Source of the DNA: Selaginella tamariscina
Taxonomy: Eukaryota; Streptophyta; Lycopodiopsida; Selaginellales; Selaginellaceae
NCBI GenBank assembly: GCA_003024785.1
Contig: PUQB01000181.1
Span: 201,501-265,500, forward strand
Direction: 5' to 3'
DNA: 64,000 bases
Shown here one piece after another: positions 9,010 to 63,120 of this stretch (positions within the stretch are counted from its first letter, which is position 1; the number at the start of each line of letters is the position of its first letter). A program made the translations under genes and the position numbers. Under the pieces are notes generated by a model. The model was not told the DNA's origin and ran no database searches. It worked only from the letters and a program-made list of their open reading frames with translations.

Positions 9010-10347
9010 ACGGTCAATGAGTTTAGCCATGTAGTTCAACATGCTCAAGCACAAGACATAAAGGTGCAAGAGCTCAAAAGACAACTAGAGCCACCATTCT
9101 CAGTTTAGGATGGAGTTTTGTACTACAATGGCCATGTGTCAACATATCTTCCTCGTGTGGACATTTGATCAGCCAGGTACTAATTCAACCAAAGGTTGGT
9201 CATTTTGGGGGGAGGAAAACGTATGAGTTGATTAAAAGAGGTTCATTGGAGGAATATGAAATTGATATCATATAGTACTACAGGACTTGTGACAAGTGTT
9301 AGTAAGTAAAGGTGCCTAGGGAGAAACTAGGTGGGCTATTAGTACCATTGCCTATTCTAGACATGCGATGGGCAGTATCTTTATGGACTTTATCATTCAT
9401 TTGCCAAGGACACAAAGGTAGAGTGAACATGTGTGGATCATTGTGGATAGGTTGACAAAGTTTGTCAAATTAATTCTCTTAGGGAAGAATGTGAATGCAT
9501 CAGAGCTGGCTACAATGTATTTACAACATTTATTTCCTATCCATGGATCCTCAGATGATATTGTAAGTGTTCGGGACTCCAAGTTCACTTTTAACTTTTG
9601 AAGAGGTTTTTCTAAGTGCATGAAAGTGAAACTTAAGTTGTTTAGTGGAGATCATCCTTGAAATAAATGGGCAAACAGAGAAGGTAAACATGTTCTAAGA
9701 TATGCTAAGGTGCACTATTAACCAGAAGGAACGCCAGTGGGATAAGTATTTCATTACTCGAGTTTGCTTATAATAATAGCCAACACATTGGGATTGGGAT
9801 GAGTTTGTATTATGTTATGTTTGAATGGCATTCCAAGACAGCTTTTGAGTTGGGGTTATTAAGTAAGAAGGCCCATGGCAACATGGATGAGGAAGTTACA
9901 AATTTGAGTGTTGAACTTTGAGAACATTTTATAATTGTGTAAGAAAAACTTACAAATAGCTCAAAGTCGACTATTAAGTTTGTTAATGAGCACAGAAGCT
10001 TCCAAGAGTTCTAAGTGGGAAATTATGTATATCTTCAAGTGGTATTTGCCACACATGTAAGGTAAAACACTATTGTGGCCTTGTGAAAGGGATGCAATGA
10101 TAAGTTGTCTCCTAGGTACTCATGTCCTTATGAGATTTTGAAGCGTATCGGTAAGGTGGCATATCGACTATAGCTACCAAAAGGAGTGAGGGTGCACCCA
10201 ATGTTTTATGTTAGCCAATTAAAAAGAGTACTCACAAGGAACGAGTCCCGAGTAAATTCTTTATGGATGTACAAGGCTAATGATATAAGACTAATTGAGT
10301 AAGTTATACTACCCTTGAGAACAAGGACTCGCTAATGGGGGGAGGAT
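9010..10347 (+). pseudogene. A1 integrase remnant and polypurine tract
   Basis: Continuation of A1 beyond B1. Recognisable pieces: FRMEFCTTMAMCQHIFLVWT (9100s); the first integrase Asp in GSIFMDFIIHLPRTQ (about 9370-9415); VDRLTKFVKLI; the decayed second-Asp region (IVSVRDSKFTF); NKWANRE for NGQTE, the Glu region near 9665; and the C-terminal VHPMFYVSQLK near 10190. Stops and frameshifts are frequent. A polypurine tract, GGGGGGAGGAT, ends at 10347, directly before the LTR. Confidence 0.8.
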
Positions 10348-12865: not shown

Positions 12866-14623
12866 ATGGATACTGAGAATCACACAAGAGAGTCCTTTCA
12901 AGAATTTATTCTTAGAATAGTATGGTACGGAGGTTCTACATTCGATGCGTGGCTAAACATTGCAGCAGCTAAGGTTTGTATAATTCAATACATATTTCAT
13001 ATAGTGCTTGTGCGTGCGTATGTGCGTGCGTGCGTGTAATCTTCCCGTATGTAAGGTTGCAGGCCGGCTATTGAATACGCCACAAGCAAGTGCTCAATTG
13101 GGATTACCTTCAGCAATTGTTATACAGCTCTTTCAAGTAGCTATAGGAATTTGGATACAAAGCATAATTAATATTTTATATTTAAAACACAAGTTTAATA
13201 TCAGGCAGACTAGAAATCGTGACTCATATAATCAGACAATTCAGGTAAATTCTATTTAATTTTTATTTAATTTGATGATATTTTAAACTTATAGCTTCAT
13301 GAAGTCATTGGTGGACTGTTGGGGTGGAAATGGAAAATAATATCATTAATATTAAATCTGGGTCTCTTTTCTTTGTTTCAGCTCTACAAATAGTTGCATG
13401 TAGCAAGTAAGTCATAATATAATAAAATCCTTCGTTATTATATTATTTTATTAATTTACAGTTTTGTTTATCTGGTTAACGATAAATTAAATAAAAGGAC
13501 ATGGACTATGGTATTTGGAGCAGTTTTCTCTCTGTCAATACTTGTTCCAAGTGCACATAACTATAGAGTATTGTCCTTCATTGGCGTGGTTACAACTATT
13601 TTTGCTTCTGGATATTTAACAATTGCTACTCTTTCCATGGAAAGGTTGTATTTAATTTATTAATTTATATTTTATGTATAATTTATATATTTTGCATTAT
13701 TATTGTTATTATTATTATTAATGTTTATTATACAGATTCCAAATGTGAAACGCACCTCTCCACATAGTTATCAAGATTACTTCACCGGTATGTCTGCCTT
13801 GACAAATCTCGGGCACGTGGCAATCCCTGTGTAAGCACTCTCTCTCTCTCTTACACACTCACACACACTCACGCACACACATGTGGTGTATGGACCTACG
13901 TGAACATGTATTATATATTAAACATACTGCAGGGAGATTATGGATGCAATGTGGAGACCCCAAGAATATAAAGTGGCATATTTTGGAGGAGGAATATTCC
14001 ATCTTTTAATGGTTATGGTTCCAAGTATTATTATGAACATAAATTTTGGAGATGCATTACTCACAAAGACAAATGCCATAGTTTTGCTTCGAGATTCTAA
14101 GTTTAAAGACACAACCATAGTTCTCATTCTTATTCACACGGTACATACGCACTTACGCACGCACACATACACACAACTAATGTTTTACCTTTTGAAGTTT
14201 ATTAGCTTTGGGATGTTTTCAATATCTGTATATACAATGTGGGAGAAGACGGTGGGAGTACATGAGTCACCTAGCTATATAAAGAGAACATTATTTAGGG
14301 TTCCAGTGTTTATCGGGTTTTGGGTGGCAGCATTAGCATTTCCATTCTTCGGAATGATGAATAGAGTGATTGACTCTATGATAGTAACATGGAACTTACA
14401 TATTCTACCATGCATGGTTTATAACATAGTTTTTTGGTCAGTTAAAGAACAGAAATTAACACATCCTTTATCAAGGTTGGGATGGGCGGTGGATTTAAGT
14501 GTTAATTTTGGGATTATCTTATGGAGGATGATTGTGGACTGTGGGTTATCATCATGGGGCAATATGGATGCATTACTGAAGTCAAAAAGTCTTAAATTAT
14601 TTCCACGTTGTTATAATTGCTGA
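12866..14623 (+). pseudogene. AUX1/LAX-like auxin influx carrier, copy 1 (two frameshifts)
   Basis: Seven exons, with introns that fit GT..AG: 12866-12973, 13056-13244, 13295-13406, 13462-13644, 13736-13830, 13933-14140, 14198-14623. About 440 codons, against roughly 470-490 for AUX1/LAX proteins. Landmarks: WYGGSTFDAWLN (exon 1), QLGLPSAIVIQLFQ (2), VNDKLNKRTWTMVFGA (4), SAHNYRV (4), VEIMDAMWRPQEYKVAY (5/6 junction), FGDALLTKTNA (6), MWEKTVGVHES and FPFFG (7), C-terminal CYNC like the family's CYQC. The family is an amino-acid/auxin permease-type, multi-helix H+ symporter of the plasma membrane that imports auxin. Compared with copy 3, one G is missing near 13360 (exon 3) and one T near 13635 (exon 4), so this copy should not encode a full carrier. 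Exons 6-7 remain open. Confidence 0.85.
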
Positions 14624-25585: not shown

Positions 25586-25603
25586 ACTTGCTCCGATACC
25601 AAT
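25586..25603 (-). other. C primer-binding site
   Basis: Just inside the 5' LTR the minus strand reads TTGGTATCGGAGCAAG, close to the initiator-Met tRNA complement TGGTATCAGAGC used by most plant chromoviruses. The same site and leader occur in element D at 30325-30337. Confidence 0.8.
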
Positions 25604-35438: not shown

Positions 35439-36460
35439 AAAGGTGCCTAAGGAGAAACAAGGTGGGCTATTAGTACCATTGCCTATTCTAGACATGCAAT
35501 GGGGTAGTATCTATATGGACTTTATCATTTATTTGCCAAGGACACAGTGGCAGAATGAACATGTGTGGGTCATTATGGACAAGTTAACAAAGTTTGTCAA
35601 GTTAATTCCCTTACGGAAGAATGTGAATGCATCAAAGCTGGCTACAATATATTTATAACATCCTATCCATGGATTTTTAAATGATATTGTAAGTGTTCGG
35701 GACTCCAAGTTCACTTTTAACTTTTGAAGAGGTTTTTCTAAGTGTATGAAAGTGAAGCTTAAGTTGTTTAGTGGAGATCATCTTGAAATAAATGGGCAAA
35801 CAGAGAAGGTAAACCAGGTTCTAAAAGATATGCTAAGGTGCACTATTAACCAGAAGGAACACCAATGAGATAAGTATATTTCATTACTCAAGTTTGCTTA
35901 TAATAATAGCCAACACATTGGGATTGGGATGAGTTTTACTATGTTATGTTTAAATAGCATTCCAAAACAACTTTTGAGTTGGGGTTATCAAGTAAGATGG
36001 CTTATGGCAACATGAATGAGGAAGTTAAAAATTTAAGTGTTGAACTTGAAAACATTCAAAGTTTGTGTAAGAAAAACTTACAAACAATTCAAAGCTAAGC
36101 TATTAAGTTTGTTAATGAGCATAGAAGCTTCCGAGAGTTCTAAGTAGGAAATTATGTATATCTTCGAGTGGTATTTGCCACACATGTAAGATAGAACACT
36201 ATTATGGCCTTGTGAAAGGGATGCAATGATAAGTTGTGTATTAGGTATTCATGTCTTTATGAGATTTTAAAGTGTATTAGTAAGGTGACATATCAATTAT
36301 AGCTATTAGAAGGAGTGAAGATGCACCTAGTGTTTCATGTTAGCTAGTTAAAAAGAGTACTCACAGTTAATTCTTTATGGATGTACAAGGCTAACAATAT
36401 ATGACTAGTTGAATAAGTTATACTACCCTTAATAACAAGGACTTGTTAATGGGGGAGGAT
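35439..36460 (+). pseudogene. A2 integrase C-terminal half
   Basis: Resumes exactly after D. 35443-35658 is open: MPKEKQGGLLVPLPILDMQW, the catalytic Asp in GSIYMDFIIYLPRTQ, and IMDKLTKFVKLIPLRKNVNA. Then a decayed core (INGQTE at about 35790-35800, NSQHIGIG near 35915) and the C-terminus MHLVFHVS near 36320. It ends at the polypurine tract GGGGGAGGAT (36451-36460). Confidence 0.8.
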
Positions 36461-37223: not shown

Positions 37224-38820
37224 ATGGATACTGAGAATCACAAGAGAGTCCTTTCAAGAATTTATTCTTAGAATAGTATGGTAAGGAGGTTCTACATTCG
37301 ATGCGTGGCTAGACATTGCAGCAGCTATAATTCAATACATATTTCATATAGTGCTTGTGCGTGCAATCTTCCCGTGTGTAAGATTGCAGGCCGGTACTCC
37401 ACAAGCAAGTGCTCAATTGGGATTACCTTCAGCAATTGTTATACAGCTCTTTCAAGTGCATAATTAATATTTTATATTTAAAACACAAGTTTAATATCAA
37501 GCAGACTAGAAATCGTGACTCATATAATCAGACAATTCAGGTAAATTCTATTTAATTTTGATTTAATTTTTATGACATTTTAAACTTATAGCTTCATGAA
37601 GTCATTGGTGGACTCTTGGGTGGAAGTGGAAAATAATATCATTAATATTCAATCTGGGGTCTCTTTTCTTTATTTCAGCTCTATAAATAGTTGCAAGTAA
37701 TAAATAATAAAATCCTTTGTTATTATTATTATTTTATTAATTACAATTTTGTTTATCTGGTTAACAATGAATTAAATAAAAAGACATGGACTATGGTATT
37801 TGGAGCAGTTTTCTCTCTGTTAATACTTGTTCCAAGTGCACATAACTATAGAGTATGGTCCTTCATTGGCGTGCTTACAACTATTTTTGCTTCTGGATAT
37901 TTAACAATTGCTACTCTTTTCCATGGAAAGGTTGTATTTAATTTATTAATTTATATTTTATGTATAATTTATATATTTTCCTTATTATTTTCCTTATTAT
38001 GTTTATTATACAGATTCCAAATGTGAAACGCACCACCGGTGAAGTAATCTTGATAACTATGTGGAGAACGTATGGCTTGACAAATCTCGGAAGCGCACTC
38101 TCTCTTACACACTCACACACACTGACACACGCACACACATGTGGTGTATACATGTATTATATATTAAAACATACTGCAGGGAGATCATGGATGCAATGTG
38201 AAGACCCCAAGAATATAAAGTGGCATATTTTGGAGGGGCAATATTTATTCTTCCAATGGTCATGGTTCCAACTATTACTATTTTGGAGATGCATTACTCA
38301 CAAAGACAAATGCCATATATTTGCTTCCAGATTCTAAGTTTAGAGACACAACCATAGTTCTCATGCTTATTCACACGGTACACACACGCACGCACGCACG
38401 CGCACACACATACACACAACTAATGTTTTACTTTTGAAGTTTATCAACTTTGGGATGTATGTGTATACAACGTGGGAGAAGATGGTGGGAGTACATGAGT
38501 CACCTAGTTATATAAAGAGAACATTATTTAAGGTTCCAGTGTTTATGGGATTTTGAGTGGCAAGCATTAGCATTTCCATTCTTTAGAACGATTAATAGGG
38601 TGATTAACTCTGATGGCAGTATGGAACTTACATATTATACCATATATGGTTTATAACATTTTTGGTCATGTAAAGAGCAGAAATTAACACATTCTTTATT
38701 AAGGTTGCGATGGGCGGTGGATTTATGATTGTGGACTGTGGCTTAACATCATGGGGCAATATGGATGCATTACTAAAGTTAAAAGGTTTTAAATTGTTTG
38801 TACATTGTTATAATTGTTAA
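37224..38820 (+). pseudogene. AUX1/LAX-like carrier, copy 2 (heavily damaged)
   Basis: All seven exon regions can be found, but broken. Two bases are missing near 37241, shifting exon 1. The exon 1 donor (AAGGTTTG) is deleted near 37325. Exon 2 lost part of LLNTP and the QVAIGIWIQS segment. Exon 3 has a stop (GCTCTATAA, 37680s). Exon 4 (37750-37930; NELNKKTWTMVFGAVFSLLI, SAHNYRVWSFIG) is open and is the best-preserved part. Exon 5 is rearranged: GGTGAAGTAATCTTGATAACTATGTGG near 38036-38062 is the reverse complement of the copy 1/3 order (CATAGTTATCAAGATTACTTCACC), so this part is inverted. Exon 7 carries TGA in the FWV region near 38555 and a deletion near 38725. Clearly non-functional. Confidence 0.85.
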
Positions 38821-47475: not shown

Positions 47476-48557
47476 AAATAGGAATATGAAAGTTGATATC
47501 ATATAGTATTATAGGACTTGTGACAAGTGTTAATAAGTAAAGGTACCTAGGGAAAACTAGGTGGGCTATTAATACCATTGCCTATTCTAAACATGCGATG
47601 GGGCAGTATCTTTATGGACTTTATCATTCATTTGCCAAGGACACAGATGTAGAGTGAACATGTGTGGATCATTATGGACATGTTAACAAAGTTTGTCAAG
47701 TTAGTTCCCTTAGGGAAGAATGTGAATGCATTAGAACTGGCTACAATGTATCTACAACATTTATTTCCTATCTATGGATTCTCAGATGATATTCACTTTT
47801 AACTTTTGAAGAGTTTTTTGTAAGTGCATGAAAGTGAAGCTTAAGTTGTTTAGTGAAGATCATCCTGAAATAAATGGGTAAACAGAGAAGGTAAACCAGG
47901 TTCTAAAATATATGTTAAGGTGCACTATTAACCAGAAGGAACGCCAGTGGGATAAGTATAGTTCATTACTCGAGTTTGCTTATAATAACAGCTAACACAT
48001 TGAGATTGGGATGAGTTTGTACTATGTTATGTTTGAATGGCATTTCAATACAGCTTTTGAGTTGGGGTTATCAAGTAAGAAGGGCCATGGCAACATGGAT
48101 GAAAAAGTTAAGAATTTGAGTGTTGAACTTGAGAACATTTAAAGTTTGTGTAATAAAAACTTACAAATAGTTTAAAGCTGAGCTATTAAGTTTGTTAATG
48201 AGCACAGAAGCTTCTGAGAGTTCTAAGTGGGCAATTATGTATATCTTCGAGTGGTATTTACCACACATGTAAGGTAGAACACTATTGTGGCCTTGTGAAA
48301 GGGATGCAATGATAAGTTGTCTCTTAGGTATTCATGTTCTTATGAAATTTTGAAACGTATCAATAAGGTGACATATCGATTATAGTTACCAGAAAGAGTG
48401 AGGGTGCACCCAATATTTCATATTAGCCAATTAAAGAGAGTACTCACAAAGAATGAGTCTCAAATAAATTCTTTATGGATGTACAAGGCTAATGATATAA
48501 GACTAATTGAGTAAGTTATACTACCCTTGAGAACAAGGACTCACTGATGGGGAGGAT
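47476..48557 (+). pseudogene. A3 integrase remnant
   Basis: ESxYHIVLQDL*QVL, SIFMDFIIHLPRTQ (Asp, about 47610-47645), IMDMLTKFVKLVPLGKNVNA, decayed INGQTE region (INGxTEKVNQVL, about 47870), and C-terminal VHPIFHISQLKRVLT (about 48405-48450). Polypurine tract ATGGGGAGGAT before the LTR. Many stops. Confidence 0.8.
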
Positions 48558-49431: not shown

Positions 49432-51176
49432 ATGGACACAAGAGAGTCCTTTCAAGAATTAATTCTTAGAATAGTATGGTATGGAGGTTCTACATTCGAT
49501 GCGTGGCTAAACATTTCAGCAGCTAAGGTTTGTATAATTCAATACATATTTCATATAGTGCTTGTGCGTGTGTGTGTGCGTGCGTGCGTGTAATGTTCCC
49601 GTATGTAAGATTGCAGGCCGGCTATTGAATACGCCACAAGCAAGTGCTCAATTGGGATTACCTTCAGCAATTGTTATACAGCTCTTTCAAGTAGCTATTG
49701 GAATTTGGATACAAAGCATAATTAATATTTTATATTTAAAACACAAGTTTAATATCAGGCAGACTAGAAATCATGACTCATATAATCAGACAATTCAGGT
49801 AAATTTTATTTAATTTTTATTTAATTTTTATGGCATTTTAAACTTATAGCTTCATGAAGTCATTGGTGGACTGTTGGGGTGGAAATGGAAAATAATATCA
49901 TTAATATTAAATCTGGGGTCTCTTTTCTTTATTTCAGCTTTTCAAATAGCTGCATGTAGCAAGTAAGTAATAAATAATAATATCCTTCATTATTATTATT
50001 ATTTTATTAATTAAATTTAATTTACAGTTTGGTTTATCTGGTTAACGATAAATTAAATAAAAGGACATGGACTATGGTATTTGGAGCAGTTTTCTCTCTG
50101 TCAATACTTGTTCCAAGTGCACATAACTATAGAGTATTGTCCTTCATGGGCGTGCTTACAACTATTTTTGCTTCTGGATATTTAACAATTGCTACTCTTT
50201 TCCATGGAAAGGTTGTATTTAATTTATTAATTTATATTTTATATATAATTTATATTTTTCATTATTATTATTATTATTATTAATGTTTATTATACAGATT
50301 CCAAATGTGAAACGCACCACTCCACATAGTTATCAGGATTACTTCACCGGTACGTCTGGCTTGTCAAGTCTCGGGGACGTGGTAATCCCTGTGTAAGCAC
50401 TCTCTCTCTTACACACTCACACACACGGACACACGCACACACATGTGGTGTATACATGTATTATATATTAAAACATACTGCAGGGAGATTATGGATGCAA
50501 TGTGGAGACCCCAAGAATATAAAGTGGCATATATTGGAGGGGAATATTCATTCTTTTAATGGTCATGGTTCCAAGTATTACTATGAACATCAATTTTGGA
50601 GATGCATTACTCACAAAGACAAATGCCATAGTTTTGCTTCCAGATTCTAAGTTTAGAGACACAACCATAGTGCTCATGCTTATTCACTCGGTACACATAC
50701 ACACACATGCACGCACACATACACACAACTAATGTTTTACCTTTTGAAGTTTATCAACTTTGGGATGTATTCAGTACCTGTATATACAATGTGGGAGAAG
50801 ATGGTGGGAGTACATGAGTCACCTAGTTATATAAAGAGAACATTATTTAGGATTCCAGTGTTTATGGGATTTTGGGTGATAGCATTAGCATTTCCATTCT
50901 TTGGAACGACTAATAGGGTGATTGGTTATTACGGTAGTATGGAACTTACATATTATACCATGCATGGTTTATAACATAGTTTTTTGGTCAGATAAAGAAC
51001 AGAAATTAACACATCCTTTATCGAGGTTGGGATGGGTAGTGGATTTAAGTGTTAATCTTGGGATTATCTTGTGGATGATGGTTGTGGAGTGTGGCTTAGA
51101 ATCATGGGGCAATATGAATTCATTACTAAAGTCAAAAGGTTTTAAATTGTTTGCACGTTGTTATAATTGCTCATAA
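49432..51176 (+). pseudogene. AUX1/LAX-like carrier, copy 3 (best preserved, two frameshifts)
   Basis: Exons 49432-49527, 49610-49798, 49850-49962, 50028-50211, 50298-50392, 50484-50690, 50750-51176; all borders fit GT..AG. Exons 1-5 are in frame through about 225 codons: MDTRESFQELILRIVWYGGS, NTPQASAQLGLPSAIVIQLF, LHEVIGGLLGWKWKIISLIL, ISAFQIAACSN/LVYLVNDK, KRTWTMVFGAVFSLS, TTPHSYQDYFTGTSGL. Exon 6 lost one base near 50540 (GGAGGGGAATATTC against GGAGGAGGAATATTCC in copy 1), and exon 7 lost two near 50925. The end reads CYNCS, then stop. Shorter N-terminus than copy 1 by four codons. Family role: plasma-membrane auxin import. Not expected to make a full protein unless the assembly is wrong at these two sites. 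Confidence 0.85.
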
Positions 51177-54196: not shown

Positions 54197-55632
54197 TGTT
54201 ATAACCCATATAATAAATCAAAGAATATTCCTTAAAAAGTTATAAGTTAAAATATTCCCTAAGGACACATGCACATATATTTGGAAGACTAGAGAGGAAG
54301 TGATATTGTGGTATTGTGAGGGTCTCTACATAGTGTCTAATAATTTAGTATAGATGGGTTATGAAGTATTAACTTACGTAAACATCTTAATTCGGTAATT
54401 TAATCTAAAAATTTGGAGGAACTATTCAAGTATGCTCGCTTGCTAAATAAGGAGGAGAAAGTGTCTAAGGAAAATAAGCAACATGGCAAGAGTATGGTAT
54501 GAATACCTATCTAAGTCCTCGTGCACACCAGGAATAACAATCATGTTAGGTCGAAGTTCAAGCTAGTGACAAGTGTCAGTAAGTAAAGGTGCCTAGGGAG
54601 AAACAAGGTGGTACCATTGCTTATTCTAAACAGGTGATGGGACAGTATCTCTATGGACTTTATCATTCATTTGCCAAGGACACAGAGGCAAAATGAATAT
54701 GTGTGAGTCATTGTGAACATGTTAATAAAGTTTATCAAGTTAGTTCCTTAGGGAAGAATGTGAATGCATTAGAGCTAGCTACAATGTATTTATAACATTT
54801 ATTTTTATTCATGCATTTTCAGATGATATTATAAGTGACTAGGACTCCAAGTTCACTTTTAGCTTTTGGAGAGGTTTTTTTAAGTGCATGAAAGTGAAGC
54901 TTAAATTGTTTAGTGGAGATCATCTTAAAACAAATGACTAAACAGAGAAGGTAAACCAAGTTATAAAAGATATGCTAAGGTGTATTATTAATAAGAAGGA
55001 AGGTCAGTGGGGTAAGTATATTTCATTACTAGAGTTTGCTTATAATAACAGCCAACACATTAGGATTGGGATAAGTCTATATTATGCTATGTTTAGATGG
55101 CATTCCAAAACAACTTTTGAGTTGGAATTAGCAAGTAGAAGGCCCATGGCAACATGGATGAGAAAGTTAAAAATTTGAGTGTTGAACTTGAAAACATTCA
55201 AAGTTTGTGTAAGAAAAACTTACAAAGAGCTGAGAACCGAGCTATTAAGTTTACTATTGAGCACATAAGCTTCCGAGAGTTCTAAATGGGAAATATGTAT
55301 ATTTTCGAGTGGTATTTGCCACACATTTCAGGTAGAACACTATTGTGGCCTTATAAAAGGGATGCAATGATAAGTTGTCTCATAGGTACTCGAGATTTTA
55401 GAGTGTATTGGTAAGGTGGCATATTGATTGCAGCTACCAAAAGGAGTGAGGGTACACCCAGTATTTTATGTTAACTAGTTAAAGAAAGTACTCACAAGAA
55501 ACGAGTCTTAGGTAAATTCTTCATGGATGTACGAGGCTAATGATACAGGACCAGTTGAGTAAGTTACATTACTCTTGAGGACAAAGACTCGCTAATGGGG
55601 GAGGATTGTTATGTCAAAAACTATTCCCCATG
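54197..55632 (+). pseudogene. A4, family A with internal deletion
   Basis: 5' LTR 54197-54400 (TGTTATAACCCATATAATAAA), a short gag stretch (YARLLNKEEKVSKENKQHGK-like, frame-broken), then at about 54567 a direct jump from gag (..AAGCTAGT) into integrase (GACAAGTGTCAG), removing protease, RT and RNase H. Integrase pieces: FMDFIIHLPRTQ-like, 54972-55178 open (MLRCIINKKEGQWGKYISLL, EFAYNNSQHIRIGISLYYAM), C-terminus VHPVFYVN near 55455. 3' LTR begins at 55607 after GGGGGAGGAT but stops after 26 bp at 55632, fused to carrier promoter DNA. Confidence 0.8.
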
Positions 55633-56296: not shown

Positions 56297-56623
56297 ATAG
56301 AGCCACCATTCTCATTTCAGGATGGAGTTTTGCACTACAATGGCCGTGTGTCAACATATCTTCCTCATGTGGACCATTGGTAATATATTTCCATCATGAT
56401 CGCCTAAAGGTTGGTCATTTTAGAGAGAGGAAAACATATGAGTTGATCAATCGGAGGTAAAGTTAATATCATATAGTACTATAAGACTTGTGACAAGTGT
56501 CAGTAAGTAAAAGTGCATAGGGAGAAACCAGGTGAACTATTAGTACTATTGCCTATTCCAAACAGGCAATGGGGCAATATCTTTATGGACTTTATCATTC
56601 ATTTGCCAAGGACACAGAGGCGT
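56297..56623 (+). pseudogene. A5 integrase, first part
   Basis: Matches 9080-9420: EPPFSFQDGVLHYNGRVSTY, LPHVDHW, TCDKCQ, PGELLVLLPIPNRQWGNIFM, DFIIHLPRTQR (Asp). It stops at the insertion of E, after GGCGT. Confidence 0.8.
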
Positions 56624-56903
56624 TGTCACGACCGGATACATGATATGCCTATAGGATATACCTACCGGATACAGGATATGCCTATAGGATATACCTACAG
56701 GATATGCCTGCAGGATATTCCTATAGGATATACCTACAGGATATTCCTACAGGATATGCCTAAAGGATAAGGGTCACTATTTTTAGCTCATGACCATATT
56801 AGACTCATGACCAGATTAGCTTGGAGTTGTGAGTATAAAAGCTCCGACCTAATTATTGTACAATCAGTTACTATTAACACCAGTCATTCTACGATCATTT
56901 TTG
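56624..56903 (+). repeat. E 5' LTR, outer part
   Basis: TGTCACGACCGGATACA onward to GATCATTTTTG, matching 61914-62215. Carries the minisatellite (56630-56770), TATAAAA at 56834-56840 and the predicted transcript start at about 56861 (AATCAGTTACTATTAA). The rest of the LTR lies inverted at about 57498-57565. Confidence 0.85.
56630..56770. repeat. 12-13-bp minisatellite in E 5' LTR
   Basis: About ten units of CCTATAGGATAT / CCTACAGGATAT / GCCTACAGGATAT type. Units are near-palindromic (ATATCC..GGATAT). The 3' LTR has the same array (61920-62085), more decayed, with several units losing a few bases. Confidence 0.9.
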
Positions 56904-57399
56904 ATCCTTGTGTGAGCTTTCGTAACTTCGTGCATGCGGAATGGTACTTATCGGGATCTCCAAAGCAAGCTTCAAAGGCAGCCACGAAACCTTTAAAGTC
57001 TTTCATGAATGGGTCGTCACGTTCCAGCAAAGGGGCAACTTAAGCCCGTGGAGATTCAACTAGTAGGGATGCCAAAAGGCCAACCTTTTGTGCATCAGTC
57101 GAGTAGCAGCATGGTTGCATGCGGATCAAAAGCCTAATCTGATTCAGGAACCCTTGGAAATCGGCACGATTACCATTGAACTTTTCTGGCATGTTAATCT
57201 TCGGCTTTGAAGAAGTGTTCGATGTAGAGGAAATCACGGATGCTTGAGAGAGAGCCTGTGCAGCAACCTTGGAGGATGCATCAACAGTTGCATGCGCCGC
57301 GTTGGTGGAACCTTGCAGATCTGTGACCACTTGGCGCAAAGTGGCTAGCTCATGAAGCAATATTTGATGCTCGCGTTGAAATTGCTCAAAATCGGCCAT
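56904..57399 (-). pseudogene. E gag, N-terminal part, inverted
   Basis: Open from ATG 57399 to 57043: MADFEQFQREHQILLHELAT, LRQVVTDLQGSTNAAHATVD, NMPEKFNGNRADFQGFLNQI, AQKVGLLASLLVESPRA; stop TAA at 57042-57040. It then reads on as VAPLLERDDPFMKDFKGFVA and AFEACFGDPDKYHSACTKLR, up to the inversion breakpoint near LTQGS. Gag capsid domain of a chromovirus. The orientation is opposite to the rest of the element. Confidence 0.85.
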
Positions 57400-57479
57400 G
57401 ATCTATGAAAGAAAAAAAAAGGAGAAAAACGAAGGAGAAGAATTAAGGAAAAAAGAGTAGCTAAAAATCAAAAAGCTAT

Positions 57480-57498
57480 GAAATCAGTTACTATCAAA
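57480..57498 (-). other. E primer-binding region, self-complementary to LTR
   Basis: In element direction (minus here) the LTR end is followed by GTTTGATAGTAACTGATTTC. Its 16 nt TTGATAGTAACTGATT are the exact complement of AATCAGTTACTATCAA in the 3' LTR (62176-62191), with one mismatch in the 5' LTR. No initiator-Met-type TGGTATC site is present. This is the arrangement of self-priming Tf1-type chromoviruses. Confidence 0.75.
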
Positions 57499-57565
57499 CT
57501 GTCAAGCCACACCTAAGAGCAAGATAATAACAAGAAGGCTTGACTCAAGAACAAGGCAAGAGCAA

Positions 57566-58037
57566 CTTCCGTTTATGCATCCGAATTTCAGCAACTTTGC
57601 ACGAACATTCCATGGGACGAAACTGCATTGATTGAACACTTCCGTTTTGGGTTGATGGATGATGTGAAGGACCTTCTCCTTTCGTTACCGGATGCCCAAA
57701 CATTAGCGAAGATTATGTAACAGGCCGTTCGTTGCAACAACTGCTTGTTCGAGCATCGTCAGGAAAATCCCGTCAACAGTTCCTGCAAACCAATCCTGCA
57801 GCTGTGGTATATACTTCTGCGACACCTTCTGGAGTAGTTCCTATGAAGGTTGAGAAATACAAGCGTGGCCCACTTTCTGCTACTGAGAAGCAACGTCGCC
57901 GCAGTGAGAATCTATGTTTGTATTGTCGTGAAGCAGGACACAAGGCGGCGAAATGTCCTATTAAAGCCAGGAAGTTCAAGACGCATGAAGTTGAAGCTGA
58001 AGTTCAGTCGGAAAACTTCAATGTTCACTTCGTTTAG
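57566..58037 (+). pseudogene. E gag, C-terminal part with zinc knuckle
   Basis: SVYASEFQQLCTNIPWDETA, EHFRFGLMDDVKDLLLSLPD, then stop TAA near 57718 and a frameshift. 57732-58037 is open with LCLYCREAGHKAAKCPIKAR, a perfect CX2CX4HX4C knuckle at about 57915-57957. Fits directly to the inverted N-terminal part. Confidence 0.85.
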
Positions 58038-58039
58038 GA

Positions 58040-58650
58040 GCCACGAAGTTGAACGTAGGTACAGACTCCATTGGTGCTGCTCATACCATTCCATCACTCA
58101 AGTTTCCTATACACATTCATCTCAATAATCGAGAGCTCAAGGAGTTTGCCCTGTTAAAACTGGTGCAAATGCATGCTTCATGGATGACACTTTTGCAACT
58201 CAACATGGCATTCCGATGGTGAAGTTGAAGCGTGCAGTTCCTGTAGAGGTGGCCGATGGTCGTCTGATTGCTTCTGGCGTAGTTACCCATGCTACCAAAC
58301 CTCTCTCTTGCAGTCATGGCGCATTCAACTGTTCAATTTCCTTCAACTTGATCAAGACTCGGTCGACTCCCATCATTTTGGGCATGCTATGGTTCGTTGT
58401 TGCAAATCCTCAGATCAACTGGAGGTCTAGGACGTTCACGTTTTCCTCTCCGGCAACCAGGACCAATCCTGTACCTTCATGTGTGCAGAATACATCCTTA
58501 GTGTCTGAGGCAGTACAAGCTACAGGATTGACCGTGCCTATTCCTGTATCAGTGTTGAAGACTCCTCCTCGACAGGATCCACCTCCTATTGGTTCGTCAG
58601 CACACTCACAAGTTCTCCTCACTCCTATGCATCCACGGACTTCTGTATAG
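58040..58650 (+). pseudogene. E protease
   Basis: From about 58085: PSLKFPIHIHLNNRELKEFA, then ALLKTGANACFMDDTFATQH at about 58150-58205. The active-site triad D(T/S)GA reads KTGA, so the catalytic Asp is replaced by Lys. The second block IILGMLWFVVANPQINWRSR matches the ILGMPWL.. motif of Tf1-like chromovirus proteases. TAG at 58648 ends the open frame. Confidence 0.8.
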
Positions 58651-58802
58651 GATTCTTCCAATCCTGTACACTTGTCAACATCCACACATGTTTCTCCCAA
58701 TCCTGCCTCTTTTCATTACTCTTCTTCTGTTCCACCCCCCAAGATCCTTCCTCTTTTTCAATCATAGCTCCCTCCTTCTCTTTTCGAGTTCTTACCATTA
58801 CT

Positions 58803-59600
58803 ATGCATGAACTTGCCACTGATCCTGCTCCTTTTCATCTTTTTGCCTTCCAAGTAACTCCTACGTCCTCTTCTACCTTTCTTGTATCTGATTCCCCTGC
58901 TTTTCAATCTCCTTTTCTTTCCTTCTTCTCCTCCTTCTTCCACCATCCAAGTATCACTCCTTTTAGAACGTTTTTGACAAGCACAAGCACAGTTCTTCCT
59001 GTTCACAGGTCCTACGATTGTCCTATCGATCTTGTGGAAGGAAAGACTCCACCGTTCGGACCGATTTATGCACTGTCACCTACAGAATTGGAGGTTCTTC
59101 GTCAGTACATCGAGGAAAACTTGGCATCCAACTTCATTCCTCACTCAAAGTCCCCTGCAGGAGCACCTATCTTCTTTATCAAGAAGAAAGATGGGAGTTT
59201 ACGTTTGGTTGTGGACTACAGAGATTTGAATCAAGTCACTATTCGGAACCGGTACCCGTTGCCATTGATCCAGGAACTTCTCGATCGGCTGCAAGGAGCA
59301 AAAGTGTTCACGAAGATTGACTTACGAGGGGCTTACAATCTTGTACGGATTCGTCCAGGCGATGAGTGGAAGACTTGCCTTTCATACAAGGTATGGACAC
59401 TTCGAGTATACGGTGATGCCTTTTGGACTTACCAATGCCCCAGCCGTGTTCCAACACATATGAACGACATCTTTCGTGACTTCTTGGACCAGTTTGTGGT
59501 AATCTACCTCGATGACATTTTGATTTTCTCCAAGGACCAGGCGGCTCATGACAAGCATGTACAACTAGTTTACAGAGGCTTCGCGAGCATGGCCTGTATG
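58803..59600 (+). pseudogene. E reverse transcriptase
   Basis: Begins within the 58803-59918 frame. [80 protein letters not shown], then a short frame-shifted stretch at 59385-59460 holding [20 protein letters not shown] in other frames, then back in frame with FLDQFVVIYLDDILIFSKDQ, an intact YLDD catalytic box at about 59507-59518. Both shifts nearly cancel, so most of the domain survives. It synthesises element cDNA in the particle. Confidence 0.9.
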
Positions 59601-60300
59601 CGAAGTTGGAGAAGTGTTTCTTTGACAGGATACTGTAGAGTTCTTGGGCTACATTGTCTCTCCTGCTGGCGTTTCCATGGACATGCACAAGGTGAAGACT
59701 ATCGCGGAGTGGGAGAGGCCCAAGTCTGTACGAGATGTACAATGTTTCCTTGGCTTTGCAAACTTTTACAGGCGTTTCATACAGGACTTCTCCAAGTGTG
59801 TACTTCCACTCATGGAACTCACCAAGCGCACAAGTGTTCTCTTGGTCCGACAAGCAGAACATGCATTCACAACACTCAAGAACATCTTCACGACAGCTCC
59901 GATTTTAGCACATCCTGATCCTTCTCGTCCCTTCTTCGTTGAAGTAGATGCCTCAGATTTTACAGTAGGATCTGTTTTATCACAAGTTGGAGAAGATAAG
60001 TTGCTTCATTCTGTAGCTTTTCACTCTCGTAAGTTCCTTTCGGTGGAGATCAATTACGAGATTCATGATAAGGAACTCAAGGCCATTGTGGATTCGTTCG
60101 AGAAGTGGCGGCATTTCCTATAAGGTGCTGCGCATCCTGTACAAGTTCTTACAGATCACAAGAACCTGGAGTATTTTCAAACGGCTTGAGTTTTTAGTCG
60201 ACGACAGGCTAGGTGGGCAGAGTTCCTATCATGTTTTGATTTCGTCATCATCTACAGGCCTGGTTTCGAAATGGCAAGGTGGATGCATTGTCTAGGCGCT
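59600..60300 (+). pseudogene. E RNase H
   Basis: Open at 59644-60123: GYIVSPAGVSMDMHKVKTIA, CFLGFANFYRRFIQDFSKCV, RPFFVEVDASDFTVGSVLSQ (catalytic Asp), INYEIHDKELKAIVDSFEKW, then stop at 60121. It continues as VQVLTDHKNLEYF (Asp) with a stop, and RQARWAEFLSCFDFVIIYRP, GFEMARWMHCL, a decayed version of GKxNxxADALSR. Early frameshift at about 59565-59640. Confidence 0.88.
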
Positions 60301-60611
60301 CTTACTTTGCACCGACCCTGGGCAATCCTGCATATGACTGTCAAAAGCAAGTGTTGTTGGGTTCCTGATCGACTTCGGCTTGCAGCACTACAAGTTCATC
60401 AGGCTCCAGCAGATTCCACACTCCTACAGGACATCCGTTTGCAGTTGGCTACAGACGACTTGGCAAGGAATGTGTTTTCACACATTAGTCCTGACATCGC
60501 AAGTTCCTCTTCCTCCAGTTCCCGTACAGACTACAAGTTGTTTACCATACAGGACGGACTCCTGTATCGGGAAGGTCTCTGTATGTTCCTGTTGGTGTTT
60601 GCAGGACTCGT

Positions 60612-61210
60612 GTGGTACAGGATTGTCATGATACCCCGGCTACAGGACATTTTGGTGTGGCCAAGACAGTTGAGTTGGTGACTCGCAACTATTGGTGGCC
60701 TGGGTTGCGAGGTTTTGTGGACAAGTTTGTACGGAGTTGTGACACCTGCAATAGGTCGAAGATGCCTCGTCACGCGCCCTCTGGTCTTCTTCGTCCTCTT
60801 CCTGTTCCTTCTGCTCCTTGGAGATCCATTTCTATGGATTTCCTCACAGATCTTCCTCCTTCTCGTGGATTTGATGCAGTTCTTGTCGTGGTTGACCGTT
60901 TCACCAAACAAGCTCATTTCCTACCATGTCACAAGACTGCTACAGGCCAGACAACTGCTGAGTTGGTGATCCGCGAAGTATTCCGACATCATGGTCTTCC
61001 TGAGAGCATTGTTTCTGATCGAGGCCCACAATTCATGTCCAAGTTTTGGCGAGAACTTCTCCGGAGTCTACAGGTTAAAGCGGACCTTTCTTCAGGATAC
61101 CATCCACAAACTGATGGGCAGTCAGAACGCACGATTCAGACCTTGGAGCAATATTTCGCTGCTTCATCAGTTACCAACAGGACAACTGGTTGGACCTTCT
61201 TCCAATGGCG
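60612..61210 (+). pseudogene. E integrase, zinc-binding and catalytic domains
   Basis: HDTPATGHFGVAKTVELVTR with CDTCNRSK (HHCC). Asp in ISMDFLTDLPPSRGFDAVLV (about 60830), VVDRFTKQAHFLPC, Asp in IVSDRGPQFMSKFWRELL (about 61015), Glu in SGYHPQTDGQSERTIQTLEQ (about 61125). The D,D,E triad is complete. A frameshift near 61180 moves the C-terminus into another frame. It inserts element cDNA into the genome. Confidence 0.9.
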
Positions 61211-61903
61211 GAGTTTGCCTACAACAACTCCGTTCACGCATCTACAGGCCAGACACCTTTCTTTGCTCTTACAGGCTACCATCCACGTTTTGACTTTGCT
61301 CCTCCTGCTTCTCCTTCTTCTGCTCCTGCAGTACAGGATCGTCTCCAGCATCTTCGTCAGGTACATGAGGATCTCCGGGTTCATCTTCAGCAGGCACAGG
61401 AACGGTACAAGCATTATGCTGATGCTCATCGTCAACCGGCACCTACATACAAGATTGGTGATCTCGTGTGGCTTCTTCGTCGGCATATTCGCACCAACAG
61501 GCCTTCTTCTAAGTTGGATTTTCAACGATTGGGCCCTTACAGGATTGCGGCTGAGGTCAATCCTGTAGCTTTCCGACTCGAGTTACCATCTACGGTGAAA
61601 CTTCATCCTGTGTTTCACACTTCTTTGTTGGAGCCGTATCATCCTTTTCTCTTCTTGGTCGTTTCTTCTCCTCCCCCTCCTGTGGTCATTGACGGTGAAC
61701 CTGAGTATGAAGTTGCAGCCATCCTTGATTCTCGTCTTCATCGCCGCCAACTTCAATACTTGGTGGATTGGAAAGGTTATTTGCCTACCGATCGCACTTG
61801 GGAACCTGCATCCAACTTACTCCATGCTTCTTCCAAAGTTGTTGCTTTCCATCGGCGTTATCCTGCTAAACCAGGTCCCAAGACTCGTGGAACTCGTCCT
61901 TAG
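61190..61903 (+). CDS. E integrase C-terminus with chromodomain (pol fragment)
   Basis: Open 237-codon frame to a normal stop just before the polypurine tract: LLPMAEFAYNNSVHASTGQT, GPYRIAAEVNPVAFRLELPS, KLHPVFHTSLLEPYHPF, then the chromodomain at about 61710-61870 (PEYEVAAILDSRLHRRQLQY, LVDWKGYLPTDRTWEP, ASNLLHASSKVVAFHRRYP). The aromatic and WKGY..TWEP residues typical of the fold are present. It would target integration to heterochromatin marks. First Met shown is not a native start; the frame joins the integrase core upstream through one frameshift. Confidence 0.88.
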   Translation: MDLLPMAEFAYNNSVHASTGQTPFFALTGYHPRFDFAPPASPSSAPAVQDRLQHLRQVHEDLRVHLQQAQERYKHYADAHRQPAPTYKIGDLVWLLRRHIRTNRPSSKLDFQRLGPYRIAAEVNPVAFRLELPSTVKLHPVFHTSLLEPYHPFLFLVVSSPPPPVVIDGEPEYEVAAILDSRLHRRQLQYLVDWKGYLPTDRTWEPASNLLHASSKVVAFHRRYPAKPGPKTRGTRP

Positions 61904-61913
61904 GAGGAGGTGC
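61902..61913 (+). other. E polypurine tract
   Basis: AGGAGGAGG just before the 3' LTR start; plus-strand primer in element replication. Confidence 0.75.
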
Positions 61914-62292
61914 TGTCACGACCGGATACAGGATATGCCTAGGATATACTACAGGATATGCCTATAGGATACCTACGGATGCCTATAGGATATACCTACA
62001 GGATATGCTTAGGATATCCTACAGGATATGCTATAGGATATATACAGGATATGATAGGATATTACAGGATATGCCTAAAGGATAAGGGTCACTATTTTTA
62101 GCTCATGACCATATTAGACTCATGACCAGATTAGCTTGGAGTTGTGAGTATAAAAGCTCGACCTAATTGTTGTACAATCAGTTACTATCAACACTAGTCA
62201 TTCTACGATCATTTTTGTCTTGTTCCTTGCTCTTGCCTTTTCTTGAGTCAAGCCTTCTTGTTGTTATCTTGCTCTTAGGTTGTGACTTGACA
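61914..62292 (+). repeat. E 3' LTR
   Basis: 379 bp, TGTCACGACCGG .. GACTTGACA, with minisatellite 61920-62085, TATAAAA at 62149-62155, and the predicted transcript start at about 62176 (27 bp from the TATA start), which begins AATCAGTTACTATCAA. Confidence 0.9.
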
Positions 62293-63120
62293 GGCGTGTG
62301 GGTCATTATGAACAGGTTAACAAAGTTTGTCAATTTAGTTTCGTTAGGGAAGAATATGAATGCATCGGAGCTTGCTACAATGTATTTACAACATTTATTT
62401 CCTATCCATAGATTTTCAAATGATATTATAAGTGATTAGAACTCCAAGTTCACTTTTAAACTTTTGAAGAGGTTTTTCTAAGTGCATGAAAGTGAAGCTT
62501 AAGTTGATCACCTTGAAATAGATGAGCAAACAGAGAAGGTAAACCAAGTTCTAAAAAATATGCTAAGGTGCACTATTAATCAAAAGGAAGGCTAGTGGGA
62601 TAAGTATATTTCATTACTTGAGTTTGCTTATATTAACAATCAATACATTGGGATTGGGATGTGTTATGTCTGGATGGCATTCCAATACAAATTTTGAGTT
62701 GGGGTTAGCAAGTAAGAAGGCCCAGGGCAACATGGATGAGGAAGTTAAAAATTTGAGTGTTGAACTTGAGAACATTCAGAGTCTATGTAAAAAGAACTTA
62801 CAAATAGTTTAAAACCGAGCTATTAAGTTTGCTAATGAGCACATAAGTTTTTGAGAGTTCTAAGTGGGAAATTATGTATATCTTCGAGTGGTATTTGCCA
62901 TACATGTAAGGTAGAATACTATTATGGCCTTATGGAAGGGATGTAATAATAAGTTGTCTCCTAGGTACTCGTGTCCTTGTAAGATTTTGGAGTGTATCGG
63001 TAAGGTGGCATATCGACTACAGCTACCAGCACCTAGTGGTTCATGTTAATTAGTTAAAGAGATTACTCATAAGGAACAAGTCCCTAACAATACATGCCCA
63101 ATTGAGTAAGTTATATTACC
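62293..63120 (+). pseudogene. A5 integrase, second part
   Basis: Continues A5 after E: GVWVIMNRLTKFVNLVSLGK, NVNASELATMYLQHLF-like, KQTEKVNQVLKN, NQYIGIG, ELGLASKKAQGNMDEEVKNL, SVELENIQSLCKKNLQIV, C-terminus near 63020-63065. Stops frequent. The site where E sits is shortened (about 10 bp lost) against A2. Confidence 0.75.

Follow-up and report, generated by a model that had tools for sequence, protein, structure and literature searches.

Our results suggest that element E, a long terminal repeat (LTR) retrotransposon of the lycophyte Selaginella tamariscina, is a decayed member of an abundant family of Tf1/sushi-type chromoviruses, and that this family very probably primes reverse transcription with the 5' end of its own RNA, as Tf1 does. 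E is a single Ty3/gypsy chromovirus at 56619-62297 of the window, by which we mean the whole stretch of 64,000 nucleotides analysed here (contig PUQB01000181.1, positions 201,501 to 265,500, forward strand). It is bounded by a 5-bp target duplication, GGCGT, and its family probably belongs to the plant clade Tcn1. An earlier reading of the letters alone (the sequence-only reading) had proposed that E is self-primed and not tRNA-primed. This proposal is supported by a conserved 12-nucleotide (nt) core, its spacing from the TATA box, covariation between LTR and primer-binding site (PBS), the predicted fold of the leader and the affinity of the reverse transcriptase (RT). Because the core is conserved, LTR and PBS covary and relatives show the same anatomy, self-priming is very likely for the E family as a whole.

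The 16-mer AATCAGTTACTATCAA occurs on the plus strand exactly at 62176-62191 and at 57482-57497, the latter inside an inversion, and with one mismatch at 56862-56877. With up to two mismatches, 0.17 chance matches would be expected in the window. Read in element direction, 57497-57482 is TTGATAGTAACTGATT, so that E runs from the LTR end TTGACA through GT into TTGATAGTAACTGATT. The sequence-only reading had described a primer-binding region complementary over 16 nt to 62176-62191, with 15 of 16 bases also matching in the 5' LTR near 56861, and both observations stand. It had placed the match directly after the LTR; instead, the match starts 2 nt (GT) past the terminal CA. When LTR and leader were resampled 20,000 times (Markov-1), a complement starting 0-5 nt past the LTR end reached 11 nt in five resamples and was longer in none, against 16 nt in E. 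The length of 16 nt holds for E itself, not for the family: the full match was found in no other scored copy, and the family core is 12 nt, TTGATAGTAACT in the PBS and AGTTACTATCAA in the LTR (13 nt in some copies), again 2 nt past the LTR end. E thus has the PBS expected of a self-primed element, adjoining the LTR and complementary to it over at least 10 nt. The same 16-mer has 43 exact-match stretches in IMG/VR, where no protein relatives of E were confirmed. The features of E on which this argument depends are the following.

56624..56903, plus strand: 5' LTR, interrupted by the inversion (alignment to the 3' LTR)
56834..56840, plus strand: TATAAAA box of the 5' LTR (sequence)
56866..56877, plus strand: self-primer site AGTTACTATTAA of the 5' LTR, one mismatch, 32 nt downstream of the TATA start (sequence)
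56904..57565 (right end approximate), minus strand: inverted segment with LTR end, PBS, leader and gag start (one minus block against three uninverted copies, about 96% identity)
57486..57497, minus strand: PBS, 12-nt core TTGATAGTAACT, 2 nt past the LTR end; the match in E reaches 57482 (sequence; pairs in family copies)
57500..57565, minus strand: 3'-terminal part of the 5' LTR (U5, ...TTGACA), carried within the inversion (about 94% identity to the 3' LTR end)
61914..62292, plus strand: 3' LTR, 379 bp, TGTCA...TGACA (sequence, alignment)
62149..62155, plus strand: TATAAAA box of the 3' LTR (sequence)
62180..62191, plus strand: self-primer site AGTTACTATCAA, 31 nt downstream of the TATA start; the RNA is predicted to begin with these 12 nt (sequence)

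The 5' LTR and the PBS of E are not in plain order: the PBS sits in an inverted segment and the plus-strand 5' LTR stops at 56903. The inversion of about 660 bp fuses the middle of the 5' LTR to gag. At its right breakpoint the aligned blocks overlap by 6 bp (57560-57565), and three copies from the same genome that lack the inversion align to E as one minus block and return to the plus strand from 57560. One could argue that the match is a by-product of such a local inversion, or of an assembly error, as the PBS of E does sit in an inverted block. However, copies on other contigs have LTR and PBS in normal order and carry the core match, and the 16-mer lies away from the inversion breakpoints. 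We rejected an inversion or assembly artefact on the grounds of these normally ordered copies, and give it practically no chance of being true.

It is also highly improbable that the site binds a cellular tRNA or half-tRNA and matches the LTR incidentally. Plant chromoviruses that are primed by tRNA-Met carry a TGGTATCAGAGC-like PBS after the LTR. Sites of the Met-tRNA type are found in most plant chromoviruses and, as the sequence-only reading had noted, in element C of the same window, which serves as a control: its initiator-Met tRNA-type PBS, TGGTATCGGAGC at 25590-25601 (minus strand), has a self-complement of only 5 nt. The PBS of the E family is GTTTGATAGTAACT, not a TGGTATCAGAGC-like site. 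No TGG adjoins the LTR end of E, hence the site is not the complement of a tRNA 3' end and does not fit tRNAs ending in CCA. Moreover, the E-family site varies together with the LTR, and the unrelated site sequences of relatives each match their own LTR (both described below). Covariation has already largely refuted tRNA priming; the half-tRNA variant was judged without comparison to actual tRNA sequences.

The pair is conserved among copies in the host assembly (300,702,823 bp, 1391 contigs). Our copy numbers are lower bounds because only 40 of 1960 candidates were scored in the leader search and 150 of 13585 in the RT search. A first set of 20 copies was drawn from the leader search, so that the PBS was already part of the selection; here the LTR end is followed by GTTT in all 20 copies and the complement is at least 12 nt long in 17. 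A second set comprised 62 copies hand-picked from the 150 RT matches (L134-L153, L157, L159, L161, L166-L204). Both anchors were present in 72 of the 82 fetched copies, and the ten copies without an anchor, all from the RT set, were dropped. A perfect 12-nt pair of LTR and PBS occurs in 60 of the 72 scored copies: 50 have AGTTACTATCAA/TTGATAGTAACT and 10 have AGTTACAATCAA/TTGATTGTAACT. Among nine copies for which the two LTRs were compared, the best LTR-LTR match has 8/578, 13/583, 12/653, 5/517, 2/510, 56/575, 6/448, 12/297 and 9/353 mismatches per alignment columns, with gaps common in the repeat-rich U3. By these counts the insertions appear to be fairly young in most cases, C451 (56 mismatches) being an exception.

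The second pair type shows that LTR and PBS change together. At the position that distinguishes the two types, LTR/PBS bases fall into 50 T/A, 10 A/T, 3 A/A (an A-type LTR with a T-type PBS) and 0 T/T copies (Fisher p 2.2e-9, uncorrected for kinship). The reverse mismatch, a T-type LTR with an A-type PBS, occurs in none of the 72 scored copies. On a tree of 64 copies (8 of the 72 left out), parsimony gives three changes at each of the two sites and five for the pair. Rows L197 and L203 have a deletion in the primer, and their alleles are therefore read off shifted. The 3' ends of 24 copies were fetched to compare both LTRs. In the ten A/T copies both LTRs read A without exception; the 3' LTR of L199 also carries one further change. 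Among the A/A copies, A is found in both LTRs of L176 and T in the 3' LTR of L198, and L191 has no 3' anchor. L176 (with L205) is flanked by the target duplication CTGGC and combines the A-type primer in both LTRs with a T-type PBS. Covariation among relatives had been proposed as a check on self-priming; it is seen in the ten A/T copies as well as in other primer types, and complementarity is kept through it.

These relatives come from contigs outside the host genome. An RT-alignment scan of bacterial and archaeal reference assemblies returned 32 loci (L044-L075). Contigs with eukaryote-type Ty3/gypsy RT occur in bacterial and archaeal records, for example of Mycobacterium, Streptomyces and Bradyrhizobium, and are most likely contamination. 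We put 22 relatives' contigs into a self-pair script, 19 of which were searchable, since in L047, L061 and L062 the contig opens at the RT or slightly ahead of it and leaves no upstream stretch to search. Seven of the 19 (L045, L046, L049, L050, L051, L052 and L075) have the same geometry as E, with an 11-12-nt complement 2 nt after ...CA. Their primers, ACTCTTGATCAA, AGTCTCGACAA, AAGGTGAACAA and AAGGCGAACAA, represent three types other than that of E; among them, the versions of L050 and L049 differ by an exchange of C-G to U-A. Each primer pairs with its own site at 11/11 positions and with unrelated types at 5-8/11; the two AAGG versions reach 10-11 if G-U pairs are counted. Of the seven, L050, L052 and L075 showed polypurine tract-like stretches and LTR starts; the remaining four did not. 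A metagenome-assembled genome (MAG) named Trichormus is the source of six of these contigs. A 'Nostoc azollae' strain is classified under the species Trichormus azollae, and 'Nostoc azollae' is a symbiont of Azolla (PMC5901025). Hence, we infer that the six contigs are DNA of the fern Azolla. A protein of another fern, Ceratopteris richardii, matches the integrase/chromodomain end of E with 53% identity over 89% of the query.

Anatomy, complementarity, conservation, covariation, the predicted helix and RT affinity together suggest how the transcript would start, be cleaved, prime and be copied again. The A of AGTTACTATCAA, which lies about 32 nt downstream of the TATA box, would be the first transcribed base, and bases 1-12 of the RNA would pair back with the PBS TTGATAGTAACT, 2 nt past the LTR end. 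The RNase H of the element would then cut CAA/CAC after base 12 (after base 11 in the AAGG type), as in Tf1, and the released 12-mer, in place of a tRNA, would prime the synthesis of minus-strand DNA. In the new copy the PBS would be copied from the primer, whereas the first 12 bases of the new LTRs would come from the 3' end of the RNA. If the PBS is copied from the primer, PBS and LTR stay matched. The E family yields exact predictions for the 5' end of the RNA and for strong-stop DNA.

This scheme also predicts the order in which a new allele should appear. With the PBS taken from the primer and the LTR from the 3' end of the RNA, copies with a new LTR and an old PBS should come first and copies with both new should follow. 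The observed classes fit: ten copies are new in both, three have a new 5' LTR and an old PBS, and none has an old LTR and a new PBS. Three copies against none do not suffice to prove the order, and we judge from frequency which of the two alleles is new. If the PBS is rewritten from the RNA, then L176 is the mismatched intermediate that one would expect.

The edge of the PBS is unusually variable. On the tree, the base just 3' of the core changes eight times, against a mean of 1.33 over 403 columns (95th percentile 5, maximum 11). With gaps counted it changes 16 times and shares second place among 437 columns; all others with at least 11 changes lie 355 to 727 alignment columns upstream of the PBS edge. 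Taken as a window of three columns the edge scores 19, which is equalled or exceeded by nine others of the 384 windows, all of them far upstream. Such a hypervariable base suggests re-copying of the PBS from the element's own RNA, at its 5' end. We lean slightly towards the view that the PBS is no fixed inherited site but is rewritten in each cycle from the 5' end of the element's RNA, that a change in the LTR passes through a mismatched intermediate, and that the edge base records where or how the parent RNA began.

The position of the core relative to the TATA box varies little. In the first set the core starts 31-32 nt after the TATA box in 18 of 20 copies (the box was found in those 18), and the primer starts 31-33 nt after it in E and in the seven relatives' contigs. 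By eye, a second subfamily of the E family has CATAAAA at equal spacing. The sequence-only reading had put the transcript start 27 nt after the TATA box, at AATCAG. It was right that the LTR partner lies near the place where a TATA-directed transcript would be expected to start; of the four additional bases, other copies pair no more than one, and the core begins at 31-32 nt. We also observed that the stretch just upstream of the predicted start is the primer's complement in L050 (65-92), L051 (19-46), L052 (1568-1595) and L075 (2718-2745) and, by eye, in L046 (near 108-139) and L049 (near 681-710), not in E (by eye). In these six contigs the predicted start thus lies inside a palindrome.

Folding the leader had been proposed as a further check. 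Leaders were folded for seven relatives' contigs and six copies of the host, each as a single natural stretch that runs from the presumed RNA start until 50-60 nt past the LTR or PBS. In all 13 the helix of primer and PBS closes the predicted fold, with a mean pair probability of 0.92-0.98 (without a shuffle control). A second stem, between R and the last bases of the LTR, forms 8-9 of 9 pairs in the six fern-associated contigs. Elsewhere it is weaker: two copies of the E family form 7 and 6 pairs and L046 forms 5. Non-cognate combinations reach 8. This predicted stem can be supportive evidence only.

The second stem does raise the question of whether complementarity is selected for another role, such as a packaging fold, translation control or dimerisation, while priming happens elsewhere, because structure may matter in those six fern-associated contigs. 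Such a role is very unlikely to be the explanation, for the following reasons. First, the pair lies exactly at the place of a PBS and is 11-12 nt long, as in Tf1 (11). Second, its partner begins at the predicted 5' end of the RNA. Third, the hypervariable base is found where copying of the primer would end. Finally, no alternative PBS candidate was seen beside the LTR.

Several observations weigh against self-priming as a general account of the family and its relatives. Twelve of the 72 scored copies lack the perfect pair, three with an A-type LTR and a T-type PBS and nine with deletions or other changes, and ten of the 82 fetched copies went unscored for want of an anchor. The A/T copies may trace to few events. 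Among the relatives, no pair at this geometry was found in L044 and L048 (both of the same MAG), in the eight contigs L053-L060 or in L073, and LTRs may be absent from some of these. In L057 a 10-nt pair begins 2 nt after a CA, but its partner, preceded by a TATA-like string, is 2.7 kb further downstream. Pairs of 12-13 nt in a different geometry occur in L054 and L060, and in L072 a Met-type site is itself matched by a complement 9 kb away. Lastly, Novikova et al. 2010 (PMC2864245) found neither a tRNA-type nor a self-priming PBS in SM-Tcn1 of Selaginella moellendorffii.

The RT points in the same direction as the priming site. Our tree contains 51 of 62 extracted rows (11 host copies omitted), is rooted at its midpoint and uses an E row that includes the frameshifted stretch. 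E and five host copies form a group with support 100/99, which joins two fern-associated and two metagenomic rows at 98/98. The group lies on the side of the fungal and vertebrate rows, and C falls into a separate clade of 12 rows (100/100). On this basis the RT of E appears to group with Tf1/sushi-type rows, apart from the plant chromoviruses of the tRNA-primed type. The placement proposed in the sequence-only reading therefore holds as regards the side of the tree and the separation from C; the tree includes no sequence of Tf1, sushi or Tcn1 themselves. The remaining features of E are listed here.

56619..56623: 5' target-site duplication GGCGT (identical 5 bp after the 3' LTR)
57040..57399, minus strand: gag start, 119 amino acids, inverted (list of open reading frames, ORFs; similar stretches in L049, L075, L050, L051 and others)
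57732..58037, plus strand: C-terminal part of gag with a CX2CX4HX4C knuckle, by eye (similar stretches in L075, L045, L046 and others)
58180..58650, plus strand: protease region, by position and similarity (58129-58500 resembles L044-L052, L073, L075 and others)
58803..59918, plus strand: RT ORF, damaged by frameshifts (Pfam RVT_1, E 1.2e-16; homologues; tree)
59644..60123, plus strand: RNase H part (Pfam RT_RNaseH_2, E 7.1e-30)
60612..61568, plus strand: integrase part (Pfam Integrase_H2C2 and rve; Ty3 Gag-Pol match)
61190..61903, plus strand: C-terminal end of the integrase, carrying a chromodomain and an SH3 domain like that of Tf2-1 (Pfam SH3_Tf2-1, E 9.1e-19; Chromo, E 2e-13)
61902..61910, plus strand: polypurine tract AGGAGGAGG (sequence)
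62293..62297: 3' target-site duplication GGCGT (identical 5 bp before the 5' LTR)

Frameshifts split the Pfam domains of E (RVT_1, RNase H, integrase, SH3 and chromodomain) into pieces, and Pfam gave no match for its gag start, C-terminal gag part or protease region. A chromodomain of type CHD_I is defined by an aromatic cage (PMC3350952). E has such a domain: besides the Pfam Chromo match, all three cage residues (Y..W..Y) are present in an alignment with CDY chromodomains.

An exact empty-site proof for E was dropped. Four paralogous stretches differ at the insertion site, and we therefore claim only the 5-bp duplication. E adjoins the edge of the last of five copies of an AT-rich block (about 9431-10249, 35563-36427, 47662-48467, 54701-55507 and 62296-63120), which by eye reads as integrase-like. 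Elsewhere in the window, an ORF at 13940-14623 resembles AUX/LAX auxin transporters (phmmer 4.9e-34 to the solved auxin transporter-like protein 3), which we take as a land-plant sign; its DNA is repeated at about 38228-38605 and 50541-50924. A protein search with this ORF, meant to identify the host, yielded nothing at E<=0.001 among 134 candidates limited by length.

The sequence-only reading had found self-priming surprising in a seed-plant setting. The host is a lycophyte, however, and for Tcn1-clade chromoviruses self-priming has already been predicted in most cases, with mosses and club-mosses as hosts (Neumann et al. 2019, PMC6317226). Hence, the E family adds an unusually well documented case and not a new mechanism. 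In that survey, self-priming of plant chromoviruses is predicted from complementarity; it is extended to TAR elements of Ty1/copia and stated not to be used by other plant chromovirus groups. What is possibly new is the covariation of LTR and PBS within one genome and the hypervariable base at the PBS edge. A topic-level literature search, which was not aimed at those words and mostly left subscription papers outside, returned no title that deals with variation at the PBS edge or with covariation of PBS and LTR inside one plant genome. As a large family whose paired LTRs have mostly diverged little, and whose primer and site differ together in one genome and across fern-associated relatives, the E family is natural evidence for self-priming. 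If the contigs do come from Azolla, ferns would join the hosts of such elements.

Among the systems compared, element C of the same window differs from E in its Met-type PBS and its separate place in the RT tree. The seed-plant clades Tekay, Reina, CRM and Galadriel (PMC6317226) share the Ty3/gypsy order and, in most cases, a chromodomain with E, but have a tRNA-type PBS. Self-priming is likewise predicted in plants for the TAR lineage of Ty1/copia (Houba, Osr-1; PMC6317226), which belongs to another superfamily. SM-Tcn1 (PMC2864245) resembles E in host genus, TG...CA LTRs, Gag, the order protease-RT-integrase-chromodomain and a T-rich leader. The comparison is by description and not by sequence, and since the published account of SM-Tcn1 gives no recognisable priming site, the E family bears on that open point in another Selaginella. 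The PBS of Tf1 is complementary to the first 11 bases of its RNA, which RNase H cleaves between bases 11 and 12 (PMC7175516). Tf1/Tf2 of Schizosaccharomyces pombe and the E family thus agree in the length of the pair (11 nt in Tf1, 11-12 nt here), whereas the hosts differ and the mechanism of Tf1 has been tested experimentally, that of E being read from sequence. The Tcn1-clade chromoviruses of REXdb (PMC6317226) share with E the aromatic-cage chromodomain and Tf1/sushi-type RT, mostly lack a tRNA-type PBS, are predicted to be self-primed and live in hosts other than seed plants. By description, not by sequence, E is a probable member of this clade; to the survey's prediction, the evidence from E adds covariation within a single genome.

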